A DNA stretch of 63,004 nucleotides, taken from positions 1 through 63,004 of the forward strand of contig JANYJG010000224.1 in NCBI GenBank assembly GCA_025358515.1, given 5' to 3'. The stretch is from Chloroflexota bacterium. GTDB lineage: Bacteria; Chloroflexota; Limnocylindria; Limnocylindrales; CSP1-4. A program made the translations under genes and the position numbers. Of the stretch, positions 55,402-62,601 are shown piece by piece. The notes under the pieces are model-generated. The model worked only from the letters and a program-made list of their open reading frames with translations, made no database searches and was not told where the DNA came from. How positions within the stretch are numbered: the first letter of the stretch is position 1; every line of letters starts with the position of its first letter.

Positions 55402-56208
55402 ATGGCCACCAGCGTAGTCAAAGCCAGACTCGCCAATCGCGGGCCGCTGGATCTCTCGACACTCGATGAAGCGGCCTTGATGGGCTGCATCGATCATTCC
55501 CTGCTTCGCCCCGAGTTGACCCGAGCGGAGATCGAGGCGGGCGTGGACCTGGCTCTGGAGTGGCAGACCGCGACAGTGTGCTGCCGGCCCTCGGATCTCT
55601 CGGCGGTGGTCTCGAGGTTGCGCCGAAGCGCAGTGGGGGCAACGACGGTGGTTGGCTTCCCGCACGGCGCACACGTCGCCACCATCAAAGAGCGGGAGGC
55701 GCTGATAGCCGTGGATCAGGGAGCCGTGGAGTTGGATCTTGTCCTGAACATCGGTGCCCTTCGATCGGGCGATCTGGGCTTCGTGCGAGACGAACTTGCC
55801 GAGATCATCTACGTCGTTGCCCCGGTTCCGGTCAAGGTGATCCTCGAAACCGCCTATCTGACCCCGGAGCAGGTCGAGGCCGGCTGCAAGCTGGCTCTTG
55901 AGGCGCGGGCGGCATTTGTGAAGAACGGCACGGGCTACTCGCCGCGTGGCGCGGATCTGGACGAGATCGCGTTGATGCGACGCGTCGTCGGGGATCGCGT
56001 TGGAGTTAAGGCCGCCGGTGGCGTGCGAACGCTGGATCGGATGCTGGCCATGCTCGTGGCCGGCGCCAACAGGATTGGGGCGACGGCGACGGCTGGCATC
56101 GGCACCGAGTGGCGGGCGCGTGGACAGGAGGCGGTGGCGGCCGCGCTTGCGGCGAGCCCACCTTCGGGGGCCGCTGCAGGTGGCGCGCCCGCGAAGGCGG
56201 AAGAGTAG
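55402..56208 (+). CDS. deoC: Deoxyribose-phosphate aldolase
   Basis: DeoC splits 2-deoxyribose 5-phosphate to acetaldehyde and glyceraldehyde 3-phosphate. The 268-residue class I aldolase has CIDHSLLRPELT, the catalytic Asp112 (ELDLVLNIG), the Schiff-base Lys174 (AAFVKNGTGYSPRGA; the common motif is KTSTG) and Lys203 (VKAAGGVRT). The ATG is 13 nt after the RCC1-like gene. The C-terminus has an Ala/Gly/Pro tail. Confidence 0.93.
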   Translation: MATSVVKARLANRGPLDLSTLDEAALMGCIDHSLLRPELTRAEIEAGVDLALEWQTATVCCRPSDLSAVVSRLRRSAVGATTVVGFPHGAHVATIKEREALIAVDQGAVELDLVLNIGALRSGDLGFVRDELAEIIYVVAPVPVKVILETAYLTPEQVEAGCKLALEARAAFVKNGTGYSPRGADLDEIALMRRVVGDRVGVKAAGGVRTLDRMLAMLVAGANRIGATATAGIGTEWRARGQEAVAAALAASPPSGAAAGGAPAKAEE

Positions 56209-56250: not shown

Positions 56251-56259
56251 TGGTATACT
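56251..56259 (+). promoter_or_regulatory. Extended -10 promoter before the purine operon
   Basis: TGGTATACT is an extended -10 (TGn plus TATACT). A TTGGGG at 56233 lies 15 nt upstream as a weak -35. Transcription should start near 56266, about 240 nt before purA, and would cover the structured leader and terminator. Confidence 0.6.
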
Positions 56260-56261
56260 TC

Positions 56262-56447
56262 CGGCTGCCCGGGCTCCAGAGGGTCCCGAGCGTCAGACCT
56301 TCATCGCCAAGGAGTGCATATTGCCCCAGGGAGGCGTGTCGTTCGCCCCGTGAGACGAACCCCCACCTTCGCTCCGCTAGGAGTCGCCGAAGCTCCAACG
56401 GAGGGGCAGTCTACCCAGGTCCCCGGCCAGTCGGCCGAGGACTTTTT
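56262..56447 (+). ncRNA. Structured leader or small RNA before purA
   Basis: Between the promoter at 56251 and the terminator ending at 56447 lie about 180 nt that fold back on themselves. The ends can pair (CCGGCTG and CCGGG near 56261-56273 with CCCGG and CAGTCGG near 56422-56434), which partly excludes the terminator. An inner 8-bp helix joins 56319-56326 with 56404-56411. A short frame, TTG at 56321 with AAGGAG 6 nt upstream, would encode MPQGGVSFAP and stop at 56353; its start is inside that inner helix. The region could be an attenuator or riboswitch for the pur genes, or a stand-alone RNA of 6S type. I cannot match a known family. Confidence 0.42.
56419..56447 (+). terminator. Intrinsic terminator upstream of purA
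   Basis: GTCC-CC-GGCC-AGTC-GGCC-GA-GGAC forms a two-part stem (56419-56442) followed by TTTTT (56443-56447) and AGTTT. It sits 58 nt before the purA start and after the promoter, so read-through or a second promoter is needed for purA expression. Confidence 0.7.
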
Positions 56448-56505
56448 AGTTTCCCGAGCATGCCGCGGTGACGGATGCCGGAACGACCGCCCAGGGGAGG
56501 ACTAG

Positions 56506-57855
56506 ATGCCCACCACCGTGATCGTCGGCCTTCAGTGGGGCGACGAAGGCAAGGGCAAGACCACGGACTTCCTCGCCGAGGACGTCACTGCGGTCGTTCG
56601 CTATCAGGGCGGCGACAATGCCGGCCACACGATCATGCTTGGCGAGGAGGTCTTCAAGCTCCACCTGGTGCCGTCGGGCGTGCTGTATCCGCATATCACG
56701 CCGATCATCGGCAACGGTGTCGTCGTAAACCCGGCCACGCTGATCGCCGAGCTGGACATGCTTGCCTCCCGCGGCCTAGAGGTCGATCGGGTGCGTGTTA
56801 GCAAGCACGCCCACGTGATCATGCCGTACCACATCGCTTTGGACGGGGCAATGGAAGCTCGCCTGGCGAGCGCGGCCGTGGGCACCACTCGCCGTGGCAT
56901 CGGGCCCGCATACGCAGACCGGGCCTGGCGCATCGGCATCCGCATGGAAGACCTGCTGGACGGCCCGGCGTTGCGCGGCAAGCTGGCTCGCATCCTGCCC
57001 GAGAAGAACGCGACCCTTCAGCGCCAGCACCGGGTCGAAGGCTTCGACCTGGACGAACTGGTGACCCTGGCGGCGGAATGGAGCCGGCGTCTGGAACACC
57101 ATCTGGCCGATACGACCCAGCTGGTCCAGGAACGCCTGGCTCGCGGCGAGCACCTCCTGTTCGAGGGCGCGCAAGGAACCCTGCTGGACCTGGACCATGG
57201 CAGCTATCCCTTCGTCACGTCCTCCAACCCGATCGCGGGCGGCGCGTGCACCGGCGGCGGCATCGGACCGCTCCAGGTGGACGAGGTCCTGGGCGTCATG
57301 AAGGCCTATGCCACACGCGTTGGGGCGGGCCCGTTCCCAACGGAACTCACCGAGGAAATCGGCGAGGGCATCATCGATCGAGGCCGCGAATTCGGGACCA
57401 CGACGGGTCGGCGTCGCCGGGTCGGCTGGTTCGACGCCGTGCCGTTGCGGTACGCCGTGGCGGTCAACAGCGTCAGCTCCATCATGCTCAACAAGATCGA
57501 CATCCTGTCCGGATTGGACGAGGTCCTGATCTGCACGGCCTATGAGGTCGATGGGCACAGAGTCGATTGGTGGCCGTCCGACGCGGACGTCCTGGCGCGA
57601 GCCAAGCCCGTATACGAACGTTTCCCGGGCTGGACGGAGCCGCTGCAGGATTGCCGTTCGATGTCCGATCTGCCCGATAACGCCCGCAAGTACGTGGATG
57701 CGGTGGAGCGCCTATCCGGCGCGACGATCGCCCTGGTTTCGGTGGGGCCTGAGCGTCATCAGACCATCGATCGAAAGCCGCGACCACTGCGCCCGCGGCC
57801 GGCGTCGGGGTTGGGGGCGTGGTCGGGGCCGGCGTTGGGGTCGGCCGGGCGATGA
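56506..57855 (+). CDS. purA: Adenylosuccinate synthetase
   Basis: PurA condenses IMP and aspartate with GTP, the first step to AMP. The 449-residue protein has GLQWGDEGKGKTTDF with catalytic Asp13, GGDNAGHT with His41, VGTTRRGIGPAYADR, FEGAQGTLLDLDHGSYPFVTSSNP and NKIDILSGLDEV. The family end (SVGPERHQTI) is followed by about 25 Pro/Gly/Arg-rich residues. GGGGAGG precedes the ATG. First gene of the pur operon, just after the terminator. Confidence 0.96.
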   Translation: MPTTVIVGLQWGDEGKGKTTDFLAEDVTAVVRYQGGDNAGHTIMLGEEVFKLHLVPSGVLYPHITPIIGNGVVVNPATLIAELDMLASRGLEVDRVRVSKHAHVIMPYHIALDGAMEARLASAAVGTTRRGIGPAYADRAWRIGIRMEDLLDGPALRGKLARILPEKNATLQRQHRVEGFDLDELVTLAAEWSRRLEHHLADTTQLVQERLARGEHLLFEGAQGTLLDLDHGSYPFVTSSNPIAGGACTGGGIGPLQVDEVLGVMKAYATRVGAGPFPTELTEEIGEGIIDRGREFGTTTGRRRRVGWFDAVPLRYAVAVNSVSSIMLNKIDILSGLDEVLICTAYEVDGHRVDWWPSDADVLARAKPVYERFPGWTEPLQDCRSMSDLPDNARKYVDAVERLSGATIALVSVGPERHQTIDRKPRPLRPRPASGLGAWSGPALGSAGR

Positions 57856-59300
57856 CCATGCAGGCGACGCCGAATTTGCAGACCTCCGGCGGAGGCCCGG
57901 CCCGCCTGCTCGTCCTGGGCGGCGGAGGCCGCGAACATGCCCTGGTTTGGAGCCTCACCCGTGAAGCGAGCGTCGAGGTAGTGCTGGTGGCACCGGGCAG
58001 CGACGCCATCGGCGACGAGCCCAAGGTCAGCTGCATGCCAGGCGTCTCGGCCATGGATCCGGCGGCTGTCCTAGCTCTGGCCACTACCGAAAACGTGGAC
58101 CTCGTGATCGTCGGTCCGGAAGCGCCGCTGGCGGCCGGTGTCGTCGATCCGCTCATAGACGCCGGAGTTCCCGTCTTCGGGCCGACGCGAGCCGCGGCGC
58201 GTATCGAGTCGAGCAAGGCCTACTGCCGGTCGGTCGCAGAAGCTGCCGGGGTCCGAGTCGCAAGGGGGATGGCGTTTTCCGTTGAATCGCTCGCCCTGGA
58301 TTTTGCCCGGGAGCTGTCGGCAGCTCGGGGTTCACGCGGCGTTGTCGTCAAGGCCGACGGTCTGATGGCCGGCAAAGGCGTAACCGTATGCGCTGACTTC
58401 GCCACGGCCGAGGACGCGATCCGGGGCCTATACGCCAAATCTGGCCCGCCCCGGGGCGGGCCGTCGATGCCCTTCGTGGTGGTCGAGGAGCGGCTGGTCG
58501 GAGCGGAGGCGAGTCTCATCGCCCTGTGCGATGACCACAGCGCCCTGGCGTTGCCACCGGCACGGGACCATAAGCGCCTCCGGGATGGCGACGCAGGACC
58601 AAACACGGGCGGCATGGGTGCCTACAGTCCGATCCCGGATCTGCCCGAGAGCCTGTGCGCCACGCTGATCGACATGATCCATTTGCCGGTCTTGGCCGAG
58701 CTCTCCCTTCGCGGCCACCCCTTCAGAGGCGCCCTGTACGCCGGCCTGATGCTGACTCCCGAGGGGCCGGTTCTGCTGGAGTTCAATGCCCGCTTTGGCG
58801 ATCCGGAGATTCAGGCGCTCCTGCCGCGTCTGGCGGTGCCGCTCAGCCCCCTCCTGCTTGGAGCCGCCCAGGGCGATCTCGCTGCAGCGGCCGCGGAACT
58901 TGGCGTGCAGGGCCGGATGCTCCCCACCACCGGGGACGCGGCGGTAGCGATTGTTCTAGCCGCGGCCAACTACCCCGAAACCCCGCGCAGAGGTGACGTT
59001 ATATCCGGACTGGACGAGGCGGCCCGCGCCGGCGGAACGATCTTTCACGCGGGAACGGTCCGCGGGTCGGACGGCGCTTATCGCACCGACGGCGGCCGCG
59101 TCCTATCTGTTGTGGGGTTGGGATCCACCATTGCCACGGCCCGAGCCTGCGCCGAGTCGGCCGCGGACTGCATAACCTGGGATGGCATGCAGCGCCGCCA
59201 CGACATTGCGGCCAGCGTCCCCGCCGCGGCCTCGGCCGGCGACTGGGATCGATTGGCCCAGGGTCCCGGCGGTCCCCAGATGTCCGGAGGCGCCTCGTGA
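57852..59300 (+). CDS. purD: Phosphoribosylamine--glycine ligase
   Basis: PurD makes GAR, the second step of purine synthesis. The 482-residue ATP-grasp protein has RLLVLGGGGREHALVWSL, VIVGPEAPLAAGVVDPL, SKAYCRSVAEAAGV, VVKADGLMAGKGVTVC, GPNTGGMGAYSPIPDL and LLEFNARFGDPEIQALLPRL. The ATG at 57852 overlaps the purA stop (ATGA); the upstream in-frame extension is Gly/Val-rich and not conserved. The last 35 residues are extra. Confidence 0.95.
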   Translation: MTMQATPNLQTSGGGPARLLVLGGGGREHALVWSLTREASVEVVLVAPGSDAIGDEPKVSCMPGVSAMDPAAVLALATTENVDLVIVGPEAPLAAGVVDPLIDAGVPVFGPTRAAARIESSKAYCRSVAEAAGVRVARGMAFSVESLALDFARELSAARGSRGVVVKADGLMAGKGVTVCADFATAEDAIRGLYAKSGPPRGGPSMPFVVVEERLVGAEASLIALCDDHSALALPPARDHKRLRDGDAGPNTGGMGAYSPIPDLPESLCATLIDMIHLPVLAELSLRGHPFRGALYAGLMLTPEGPVLLEFNARFGDPEIQALLPRLAVPLSPLLLGAAQGDLAAAAAELGVQGRMLPTTGDAAVAIVLAAANYPETPRRGDVISGLDEAARAGGTIFHAGTVRGSDGAYRTDGGRVLSVVGLGSTIATARACAESAADCITWDGMQRRHDIAASVPAAASAGDWDRLAQGPGGPQMSGGAS

Positions 59301-60637
59301 TTCCGCGGTACACGCTCCCCGAAATGGGCGCGCTCTGGACCGACCAGGCCCGCTTCGAGCTCATGTTGCGTGTCGAGATAGCCGTGTCGCGGGCGGAAGC
59401 TTCGCGCGGCATGGTTCCGGCCGAGGCTCTGCGGGCGATAGAGAGCCGGGCCCGCATCGACGTCGAGCGCATCGCAGAGATCGAGAAGACCACCGACCAC
59501 GACGTCATCGCCTTCGTAAGCCAGGTCGCGGAAACGGTCGGCGAGGAAGGCCGCTACCTGCACCTGGGGCTGACCAGCAGCGACGTCATCGACACCGCGC
59601 TGGGGCTCCAACTCCAGGCCGCCGGAGTGCGCCTCGTGGCCGACTGCGACGCGCTGATCGAAGTTCTGGTGGCACGCGCCCGGGCCGAAGCCGGGACGGT
59701 GATGATGGGCCGGACTCACTCCGTGCACGCCGAACCGACTACGCTCGGCATGAAGATCGCCGGCTGGGCCTTCGAGATCGCCCGCGACCGAGTCAGACTC
59801 GCCGCCGCGGTGGACGACTCGGCCACCGGCAAGATCTCCGGTCCCGTGGGCACGTACAGCCACCTCGAGCCGGATCTCGAGGAAGAGGTTTTGGCCGACC
59901 TCGGCCTGCACCGGGACCCGATCTCCACCCAGATCGTTCAGCGCGATCGCCACGCGGCGCTGCTGGCCGCCATTGCGATCACGGGCGGCAGCCTGGAGCG
60001 GATCGCCACGGAGATTCGCAACCTCCAGCACACCGAGATCGGCGAGTTGATGGAGCCCTTCCGCGCCGGCCAGAAGGGAAGCTCCGCCATGCCCCACAAG
60101 CGCAACCCGATCCTGTCTGAGCGCATTGCGGGCATGGCCCGTCTGTTGCGCGGCTACTCGATGGCGGCCATGGAGAACCAGCCGCTCTGGCACGAGCGCG
60201 ACATCAGCCACTCCAGTGCCGAGCGGGTTCTGCTGCCCGACGCCACGATCCTGCTCGACTACATGCTGGTCAAGACGCGCGGTCTGATCGAGCATCTGGT
60301 CGTTCGGCCGGATCGGATGCGCGAGAACATCGAGCGCGGTCTGGGCCTGCATTGCAGCAGCCGAGTCCTGCTGGCCCTGGTCGAGGAGGCCGGTCTATCG
60401 CGCGAGGAGGCGTACGCTGTCGTCCAGCGCAACGCGCTGCGCGCCGCCGACGAACGCCGCCAGCTGCGTGACCTGCTCAACGCCGACCCCGACGTCGCCG
60501 CTCACCTCTCGGACGAAGCCCTTGCCGCCTGTTTCGACGAGAGCCACTTCCTGCGTAACGTGACTACCGCACTCGCCCGATTAGACCAGCTGGTACCAGC
60601 TGGAATGGAGGCCGCCAATGACAGCTCAGGCCACTAA
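59297..60637 (+). CDS. purB: Adenylosuccinate lyase
   Basis: PurB cleaves SAICAR and adenylosuccinate, releasing fumarate. The 446-residue protein has TTDHDVIAFV, HLGLTSSDVIDTALGLQL, the catalytic-His region GRTHSVHAEPTTLG, the fumarase-type signature GSSAMPHKRNP and WHERDISHSSAERVLLPD. The GTG start overlaps purD (GTGA). Its last 20 bases overlap purC in another frame. Confidence 0.96.
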   Translation: MIPRYTLPEMGALWTDQARFELMLRVEIAVSRAEASRGMVPAEALRAIESRARIDVERIAEIEKTTDHDVIAFVSQVAETVGEEGRYLHLGLTSSDVIDTALGLQLQAAGVRLVADCDALIEVLVARARAEAGTVMMGRTHSVHAEPTTLGMKIAGWAFEIARDRVRLAAAVDDSATGKISGPVGTYSHLEPDLEEEVLADLGLHRDPISTQIVQRDRHAALLAAIAITGGSLERIATEIRNLQHTEIGELMEPFRAGQKGSSAMPHKRNPILSERIAGMARLLRGYSMAAMENQPLWHERDISHSSAERVLLPDATILLDYMLVKTRGLIEHLVVRPDRMRENIERGLGLHCSSRVLLALVEEAGLSREEAYAVVQRNALRAADERRQLRDLLNADPDVAAHLSDEALAACFDESHFLRNVTTALARLDQLVPAGMEAANDSSGH

Positions 60638-61577
60638 CCCCGGCGATCCTCGAACTGCCGGCCACACCCTCGCCGGCGCGGGCGGCTTCGTCCGATCCGG
60701 TAAGGTTCGCGACCTCTTCGAGGTAGGGGACCGGCTGCTGCTGGTCGCAAGTGATCGCCTGTCCGCCTTTGACGTCGTCCTGCCCACGCCGATCCCGGAC
60801 AAAGGACGCGTTCTGACCGGCATCTCGCGCTTCTGGTTCGATCGAACGTCGGACATCCTCCCGAACCACCTGCTCGGCACCAGCCCCGATGACCTGCCGG
60901 CCGGCTTCACAGACGATGCGGGCAAGAGCGAGTTGCGCGGCCGGATGATGCTGTGCCGCCGAGCCAGGGTGCTGCCGGTCGAGGTCATCGTTCGCGGCTA
61001 TGTCGCCGGCTCTGGCTGGAAGGACTACCGCCGGACCGGCGCAATCTGCGGCACCAAGCTGCCCGACGGGTTGCGGGAAAGCGATCGCCTGCCGGAGCCA
61101 ATCTTCACGCCGTCGACCAAGGCAGAGGTTGGGCATGACGAGAACATCGGCTTCGATGCCATGGTGGACCTGGTCGGCGCGGACCTGTCCGAGCGAGTTC
61201 GCGACCTGGCCCTGGCCCTGTATCGCCGCGGCGCCGAGATCGCCCAGCGAGCCGGCATACTGCTGGCCGACACCAAGTTCGAGCTTGGCACGGCCCTGGA
61301 CACGGGCGAGTTGATGTTGATCGACGAGATTCTCACGCCCGATTCCAGCCGTTTCTGGGACGCCGCTGTTTATGAGCCGGGACGGGCCCAGGCGAGCTTC
61401 GACAAGCAATTCGTCCGCGACTGGCTCGAAGCCGGATCGTGGGACAAGACCTACCCGGGTCCGGAACTGCCGGCCGAAATCGTGGCCGGCACCCGCGCGC
61501 GCTATGCGGCGGCGTTCGAACGCATCACCGGGGCCAGTTTCGAGCGCTATCTGAAGGAGGACGTGGTTGCCCCATGA
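60618..61577 (+). CDS. purC: SAICAR synthetase
   Basis: PurC joins CAIR and aspartate. The 319-residue protein has GKVRDLFEVGDRLLLVASDRLSAFDVVLP, PVEVIVRGYVAGSGWKDY, FTPSTKAEVGHDENIGF, LADTKFELG and LIDEILTPDSSRFW. It is the longer, PurC type found in yeast and several bacteria. The ATG at 60618 lies inside the purB end with GGAGG-like purines nearby; ATGA overlap with purS. Confidence 0.95.
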   Translation: MTAQATNPGDPRTAGHTLAGAGGFVRSGKVRDLFEVGDRLLLVASDRLSAFDVVLPTPIPDKGRVLTGISRFWFDRTSDILPNHLLGTSPDDLPAGFTDDAGKSELRGRMMLCRRARVLPVEVIVRGYVAGSGWKDYRRTGAICGTKLPDGLRESDRLPEPIFTPSTKAEVGHDENIGFDAMVDLVGADLSERVRDLALALYRRGAEIAQRAGILLADTKFELGTALDTGELMLIDEILTPDSSRFWDAAVYEPGRAQASFDKQFVRDWLEAGSWDKTYPGPELPAEIVAGTRARYAAAFERITGASFERYLKEDVVAP

Positions 61578-61864
61578 GTGAGTTCCGATTCGCCGTCAAT
61601 GTGCTGCCCAAAGCCGGCATCCTGGACCCCCAGGGTCGAGCCGTGGAGCAAAGCCTGCCCCACCTCAACGTCACCACGGTCTCGCGGGTGCGAGTCGGCC
61701 GGCGGGTCGAGTTGACCGTCAGCGCGGACACACAGGACGCGGCCCTGGCCGTGGTCGGCGGGCTCGCCAGGGAGTTGCTCAGCAACCCGCTCATCGAGGC
61801 CTACAGCATCGAGTTGCTGGAGGGAATCTCCTCCGCCGTTTCGGCCACGGCAACGCAGCCGTGA
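61574..61864 (+). CDS. purS: FGAM synthase subunit PurS
   Basis: PurS is the small structural subunit of the three-part FGAM synthase PurS-PurQ-PurL. The 96-residue protein has the family pattern FAVNVLPKAGILDPQGRAVEQSLPHL, VSRVRVGRRVELTVS and ELLSNPLIEAYSIELLEG. It overlaps purC (ATGA) and purQ (GTGA). Confidence 0.92.
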   Translation: MSEFRFAVNVLPKAGILDPQGRAVEQSLPHLNVTTVSRVRVGRRVELTVSADTQDAALAVVGGLARELLSNPLIEAYSIELLEGISSAVSATATQP

Positions 61865-62601
61865 GGGTGGGAGTCGTCGTCTTCCCGGGCTCGAATTCGG
61901 ACGTGGATGCGCTCAACGCGCTGGCTGTGGCCGGAGTCGAGCCGGTGTCGCTGTGGCACGAGTCGCCGGACCTGCAGGGCGTTTCCGCGGTGATCCTGCC
62001 GGGCGGCTTCGCGTATGGCGATTACCTGCGGGCGGGCGTCATAGCTCGCTTCTCGCCGGTCATGCGGGGCGTCTCCGCGTTCGCGGCTCAGGGCGGACAC
62101 GTTCTGGGCATCTGCAATGGCTTCCAGGTCCTGGCCGAGGCCGGCCTGGTTCCGGGCGCGCTGCTGCGCAATCGCTCGCTCCGGTTCGCCAGCAAAATCG
62201 TGGCCATCAAGCCGCAGCGTCTGGACTCACCCTTCACCCGAGCCGCCAGCGGCCAGCCGTTGCACATTCCAATCGCCCACGGTGAGGGCTGCTACTACGC
62301 CGATGAGGCGACGCTGGACGAGCTCGAGCGCACCGGCCAGGTGCTGTTCCGCTACGTCCACGAAGACGGCTCGCCGGCCCTGGATCCCGACGATCCGGCC
62401 AACCCGAACGGCTCGCTGCGCGGCATCGCCGGTGTCTGCAACACCGCCGGGAACGTGGCCGGGCTGATGCCGCATCCGGAGCGGATGTCCGAATCGATCC
62501 TGGGTACCGACGATGGGATGCAGCTGATCCGCTCGCTCGTTCTGAGCGCCGCGGAACGAGACGCGGCTTACGGGCCCGCAAGCGTTGGAGGGACCCGATG
62601 A
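61861..62601 (+). CDS. purQ: FGAM synthase glutaminase subunit PurQ
   Basis: PurQ supplies ammonia from glutamine to PurL. The 246-residue class I amidotransferase has [31 protein letters not shown], the nucleophile Cys in [19 protein letters not shown], and the His-Glu pair in [11 protein letters not shown]. The GTG overlaps the purS stop and the TGA overlaps the purL ATG. Confidence 0.95.

Follow-up and report, generated by a model that had tools for sequence, protein, structure and literature searches.

The best-described counterpart of the leader analyzed here is the PyrR site of the pyr attenuator of Bacillus. In a review, the target of PyrR, an anti-antiterminator, is given as ARUCCAGAGAGGYU and contains a C.G.GA loop of the form CNGNGAG; PyrR bound to UMP or UTP causes pyr transcription to terminate, and with GTP bound the protein is unable to bind RNA (PMC7430163). 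The same review connects the binding of GMP by Bacillus-type PyrR to a suggested cross-regulation of pyr by purines (PMC7430163), and a survey of RNA-motif regulons assigns the PyrR motif to the control of pyrimidine metabolism (PMC3766115). In the literature that we searched, which covers only a minority of subscription journals, no paper placing PyrR at a purine operon was found. For Mycobacterium smegmatis, Fields and Switzer reportedly described in 2007 a PyrR-dependent translational repression of pyr that acts through a leader hairpin near the Shine-Dalgarno sequence.

We analyzed a window of 63,004 nucleotides from a Chloroflexota bacterium, in which the region 56251-56505 separates deoC (55402-56208; TIGR00126) from a run of purine genes on the forward strand. 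This run directly follows the leader and covers positions 56506-62601. Its first gene, purA, encodes adenylosuccinate synthase (56506-57855; 585 bits with NF002223 against a cut-off of 402, and above the cut-off of TIGR00184), and purD (57852-59300), purB (59297-60637), purC (60618-61577), purS (61571-61864) and purQ (61861-62601) each score above the cut-off of the matching NCBIfam model. Sequence comparisons suggest that the leader of purADBCSQ is probably a transcription attenuator whose sensor would be the protein PyrR, recruited to the purine operon. An attenuator had already been proposed in a sequence-only reading of this DNA, and this proposal stands in kind, given the conserved leader, its regulatory hairpin, its terminator and its tie to purA, but not in the competition between paired RNA ends and terminator through which it was thought to work.

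The 5′ end of the leader carries an extended -10 element on the forward strand (TGGTATACT, 56251-56259, with TATACT at 56254-56259), from which transcription would start at about 56266; no -35 element was matched upstream of it. TATACT is found 90-101 nt 5′ of the hairpin loop in 19/20 of the same-genus leaders that we scanned. In the same-genus leader outside this count (L017) the contig ends at the TATACT site, and GTATACT is visible in the alignment. Toward purA, the arms GGTCCCCGGCC and GGCCGAGGACT followed by TTTTT form an intrinsic terminator (about 56418-56447), and promoter and terminator together enclose an RNA of about 180 nt. The terminator search returned one terminator in the window's leader relative to 0.3 expected in shuffled sequences. 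A strict unbulged stem with a T-run was detected in 39/88 leaders of the host family (relative to 1-10/88 across 10 shuffles). Within the RNA, a Shine-Dalgarno-like AAGGAG (56309-56314) precedes a short frame, TTG..TGA (56321-56353), whose stop lies inside the hairpin loop. The sequence-only reading had pointed out the extended -10, the terminator and this internal frame, and our analysis bears it out on all of these elements. A further frame, GTG..TAG (56350-56505), overlaps the stop of the short frame and abuts the ATG of purA. This frame is open across much of the genus, but in four leaders of other genera it does not share the reading frame of purA and its sequence is dissimilar, and it was rejected as a second leader frame.

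The informative part of the leader is a hairpin that the sequence-only reading did not include: a PyrR-type hairpin (56339-56363), GTTCG-CCCCGTGAGA-CGAAC (56341-56360), whose stem pairs 56341-56345 with 56356-56360 and whose loop is CCGTGAG (56348-56354). We aligned 61 distinct purA fragments, which were selected by their loop and not by their stem; identical fragments were merged, L017 was left out because a wrong site had been picked in it, and 16 loci that had no recognisable loop or that duplicated another locus were removed by hand. Only four columns are invariant in this alignment. They correspond to the loop letters C.G.GA within the frame CNGNGAG (mostly CCGUGAG), and the departures from CCGUGAG mostly affect the N positions (CGGUGAG, CAGUGAG, CCGCGAG) or the last G. 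The stem is paired in 77.8% of the cells, relative to 69.0% in shuffles, and 44 cells changed on both sides, relative to 26.9; neither value was reached by any of the 500 shuffles. The covariation of the stem was likewise above all 500 shuffles (0.341 relative to 0.208 ± 0.020) and the best slid control reached 0.197. Two of the five measures showed no clear excess among these 61 hairpins: the number of pairs changed on both sides (5 relative to 4.8 in shuffles) and the number of pair types (17 relative to 14.0; reached by 25/500 shuffles). The earlier reading had named an absence of covariation among relatives as evidence against a regulatory RNA; the stem of the hairpin does covary.

A descriptor combining the loop and the stem was found in 64/88 purA leaders and in 20/26 genera (shuffle mean of 6.2/88; 4/88 on the reverse strand). 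Among these 64 matches, two are located off the aligned hairpin (L057 and L109), two are identical (L096 and L097) and two overlap (L083 and L104). When restricted to the form CNGUGAG, the descriptor was present in 63/88 purA leaders and in 0/314 purA coding windows, and the unrestricted form was present in 20/314 of these coding windows. Six of the 26 genera have no descriptor match in their purA leader, which speaks against the involvement of PyrR. Several of these genera keep the linker and the terminator, and part of the leader may therefore serve something else.

RNAalifold predictions based on 23 leaders contain an outer stem P2 (56330-56334 with 56366-56370), which is nearly invariant and hence shows little covariation, and a variable hairpin P3 (GGAGT/GCTCC, 56380-56396) with changes on both sides. 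The family alignment also presents a conserved linker, GGAGGGGCAGTCTACCCAGG (56400-56419), which possibly forms a small hairpin P4. Small internal loops such as GA/A, candidates for the purine-rich internal bulge that PyrR sites carry below the upper stem, are predicted in some leaders but not uniformly. As a whole, the folding of the window's leader is unexceptional (z = -1.33; 21/200 shuffles fold at least equally well). The long-range pairing between the RNA ends described in the sequence-only reading is present in the window sequence itself, but it reaches at least 7 bp in only 11/20 same-genus leaders, several of them at shifted positions, and its 3′ side hardly varies, so that there are no compensating changes. 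Since this pairing is not conserved, its supposed competition with the terminator is left unsupported as the mechanism of attenuation. Searches for an antiterminator overlapping the hairpin and the terminator gave no signal clearly above shuffles, an antiterminator formed by the 3′ strand of the hairpin gave no signal, and the folds of the nascent RNA yielded no common partner for the terminator arm.

We further analyzed the conservation of the leader in a sample of 107 genomes of the host family. DNA similarity detected it in all 20 other genomes of the same genus and in 4/16 of the family genomes searched from other genera. A covariance model of the purA leader (R1) matched a leader in 89/107 family genomes, and for 74/78 of the family matches that we checked, purA follows on the same strand at a distance of 6-348 nt. 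The four exceptions correspond to a contig end (L064), an 11-nt overlap of the alignment (L103) and two weak second matches (L116 and L121). The comparison of purA upstream regions in relatives, which had been put forward as a check, comes out in favor of a conserved leader. Outside of the family, R1 matched weakly in 4/70 other genomes of the class, none with purA in the flanking DNA examined. We took the weak matches away from purA as chance, both those in the other class genomes (L112, L115, L117 and L118) and those within the family (L116 and L121), and genome G075 contained two further weak matches. The loop-plus-stem descriptor was also found in five of 110 additional purA loci (2/6 family members and 3/104 others), and the three matches outside the family look like chance. 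In nine regions upstream of purA, taken from the remaining families of the class, inspection revealed no recognisable leader. Within the family, several leaders keep the linker and the terminator but miss the CNGNGAG loop (L081, L100, L101 and L102 in genus g24; L090, L091, L110 and L113 in genus g28). In several genera, SAM riboswitches (RF00162, 67-72 bits) are located near purA on the opposite strand (L025:893-1008, L065:1854-1969, L067:75-190, L070:30-145 and L076:1861-1976).

The same hairpin was found upstream of two other genes of the family, pyrR and carA. The genome of the window encodes PyrR (249 bits relative to a cut-off of 138, with three of five PyrR models above cut-off), and the closest solved chain to this protein is 1ufr, annotated as "pyr mRNA-binding attenuation protein". 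Upstream of its own pyrR gene, this genome presents the sequence CCGGC-ACCGUGAG-GCCGG-GAAGGAGG. The 18 distinct pyrR hairpins resemble GACCGGYNCNGNGAGGCCGG: the N letters vary and C.G.GA is invariant. We sampled 31 pyrR loci from 87 genomes and 30 carA loci from the 85 genomes with carA, namely the best-scoring ones plus the window's own pyrR. The descriptor was found in 24/31 pyrR leaders (0-5 in shuffles) and in 30/30 carA leaders, with at least two copies in tandem in 28 (shuffle mean of 1.6) and one copy in the other two. These carA leaders (L316, L320 and L323, in addition to the 30 carA loci L336-L365) represent an unannotated part of the PyrR regulon of this family, and four pyrR leaders (L156, L164, L178 and L180) apparently contain two such hairpins in a row. 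In the pyrR leaders and in two carA leaders (L316 and L323), AAGGAG comes immediately after the hairpin and points to translational control at these genes, as the terminator located after the hairpin at purA points to attenuation there. Because pyrR and carA leaders also carry the central hairpin, PyrR, and not the RNA itself, is the likely sensor. PyrR was found in 87/107 family genomes. It was not detected in the other 20, including 6 of the 34 best, which argues against this view; perhaps these absences reflect incomplete assemblies.

Reciprocal models connected the two sets of hairpins in part. A model built from pyrR hairpins only (R2) was run on both strands of 69 purA loci (151 kb), and the five best of its 94 matches were purA leader hairpins. 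Conversely, a model built from purA hairpins only (R3) was run on 31 pyrR loci (104 kb), and the ten best of its 42 matches were pyrR leader hairpins. Against a role of PyrR at purA, R2 recovered the leader hairpin in just 27/69 purA loci and missed that of the window, and R3 recovered the pyrR hairpin in 16/31 loci and missed that of the window's own genome. Over 12 genomes, R3 identified sites before carA in seven, with CarA confirmed for three, along with many other matches without an evident gene link.

The earlier statement that the leader contains no known purine, ZTP or guanine riboswitch core agrees with our Rfam searches: no family matched the leader of the window at the gathering score, the only four matches at E-values up to 10 resembled chance and were all on the minus strand, and 15 purA or pyrR loci gave no match at any leader. 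The Rfam model of the PyrR site (RF00515) did not exceed its cut-off in any of the 107 family genomes and none of the 34 matches listed was at purA, which again counts against PyrR. Below threshold, this model matched directly before pyrR in 15 genomes (E-values of 0.3-7) and before carA in seven (best score of 48.6 bits; cut-off of 54). These weak matches tie the hairpins of pyrR and carA independently to the known PyrR motif. The Rfam model appears to miss most of the sites of this family. Two other loci with weak RF00515 matches, L124 and L125 (31.6 and 27.9 bits), carry a carbamate kinase gene as read by eye.

Several other explanations of the leader were considered. It is unlikely, but deserves consideration, that the leader is a new purine-sensing riboswitch. 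In this case, a purine nucleotide or intermediate would bind an aptamer made up of the loop and the linker (GGGGCAGUCUAYCCAGG), and the expression platform would be the terminator. Such a riboswitch would account for the presence of the terminator, for the strict tie to purA and for the conservation of the linker beyond the hairpin, including in several genera whose leaders miss the canonical loop. A pseudoknot between the loop and the GGG strand of the linker would also agree with it: pairing of at least 5 bp is found in 39/64 leaders, relative to a shuffle mean of 30.4 and a maximum of 37. However, pairing of at least 6 bp is not in excess (8/64 relative to 9.2 in shuffles) and we judged this pseudoknot unconvincing. 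Moreover, RNAs that are otherwise dissimilar present the loop again upstream of pyrR and carA, with its N letters free, which fits a protein site, and none of the known riboswitches matches. A stand-alone small RNA, 6S or another, standing before purA by chance was the main alternative raised in the sequence-only reading. A promoter and a terminator of its own around about 180 nt would suit such an RNA, but there is no Rfam match, the family matches stand before purA and the same hairpin is present in pyrR and carA leaders; we consider this explanation very improbable and have set it aside.

Attenuation by a leader peptide, with a ribosome on the short UUG frame governing the terminator, was favored at first (the peptide would be MPQEGVQFAP) because the Shine-Dalgarno and the TTG are kept in the genus. 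This frame ends with CCG-UGA in the loop, and a peptide ending in Pro-stop is reminiscent of TnaC. In 47/69 leaders with a CCGUGA loop, the Shine-Dalgarno and the start codon precede a frame whose end falls at the loop, which makes the frame common but not universal, whereas a peptide-based attenuator of the trp or tna type would have its translatable frame wherever the leader is kept. The explanation was demoted as other genera were found without the start: the frame is absent from the examined leaders of six genera that retain the loop (g3, g11, g12, g13, g25 and g29). In addition, the first two positions of codon 7 are variable within the genus and the covariation of the stem extends over the stop codon. 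We regard peptide-based attenuation as quite improbable, and the short frame may add a translational input. Similarly doubtful is the possibility that PyrR binds the purA leader without attenuating purA, and chiefly affects the stability of the RNA or serves as a decoy. The failure to find an antiterminator would fit this possibility; the conserved terminator between the hairpin and purA and the constant position at purA argue against it.

The reading that we retain is attenuation of purADBCSQ by PyrR. Transcription would start from the extended -10 element, the hairpin with its CNGNGAG loop would fold in the emerging transcript, PyrR loaded with a nucleotide would presumably bind this hairpin, and the formation of the terminator, or its failure to form, would decide whether purADBCSQ is transcribed. 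If the sign were the same as in Bacillus, plentiful GTP and purines would raise purine synthesis. We therefore lean slightly toward an inverted sign, with PyrR binding favoring read-through, on the basis of a physiological argument and not of evidence. One tentative scheme, which we hold to be possible but less than probable, is that PyrR was recruited to the purine operon in this one family with an inverted sign: UMP-bound PyrR on the purA hairpin would favor read-through and GTP would release it, such that a single protein would balance both pools by repressing pyr and car and activating pur through the same hairpin. More generally, one protein may link the supply of pyrimidines and purines in the host family. 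A PyrR hairpin on a purine operon, if true, would be the reverse of the suggested cross-regulation of pyr by purines, and it would bring the old question of the balance between purines and pyrimidines within reach of experiments that need a single protein, three leaders and a small set of nucleotides.

Relative to known systems, the purA leader is closest to the PyrR site of the Bacillus pyr attenuator (RF00515). Both present the CNGNGAG hairpin loop, and several purA leaders read GGUCCCGUGAGGCC where the Bacillus consensus reads ARUCCAGAGAGGYU. The upper stem of the purA leaders is likewise base-paired and covarying, a terminator lies downstream and the genome encodes PyrR. In contrast to Bacillus, the copy in the window stands before purA and not before a pyrimidine gene, it presents a C-A mismatch where the Bacillus consensus has a closing U-G pair, no antiterminator was found and the purA hairpins fall below or outside the RF00515 model. 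The pyr repression reported for M. smegmatis resembles the arrangement at pyrR and at two carA loci of the host family, where AAGGAG comes right after the hairpin, and differs from the purA leader, where a terminator follows the hairpin. Finally, the purine-linked riboswitches (guanine/adenine, ZTP and PRPP) differ from this leader in that no Rfam model matches it, and share with it the position of a leader RNA before purine genes.
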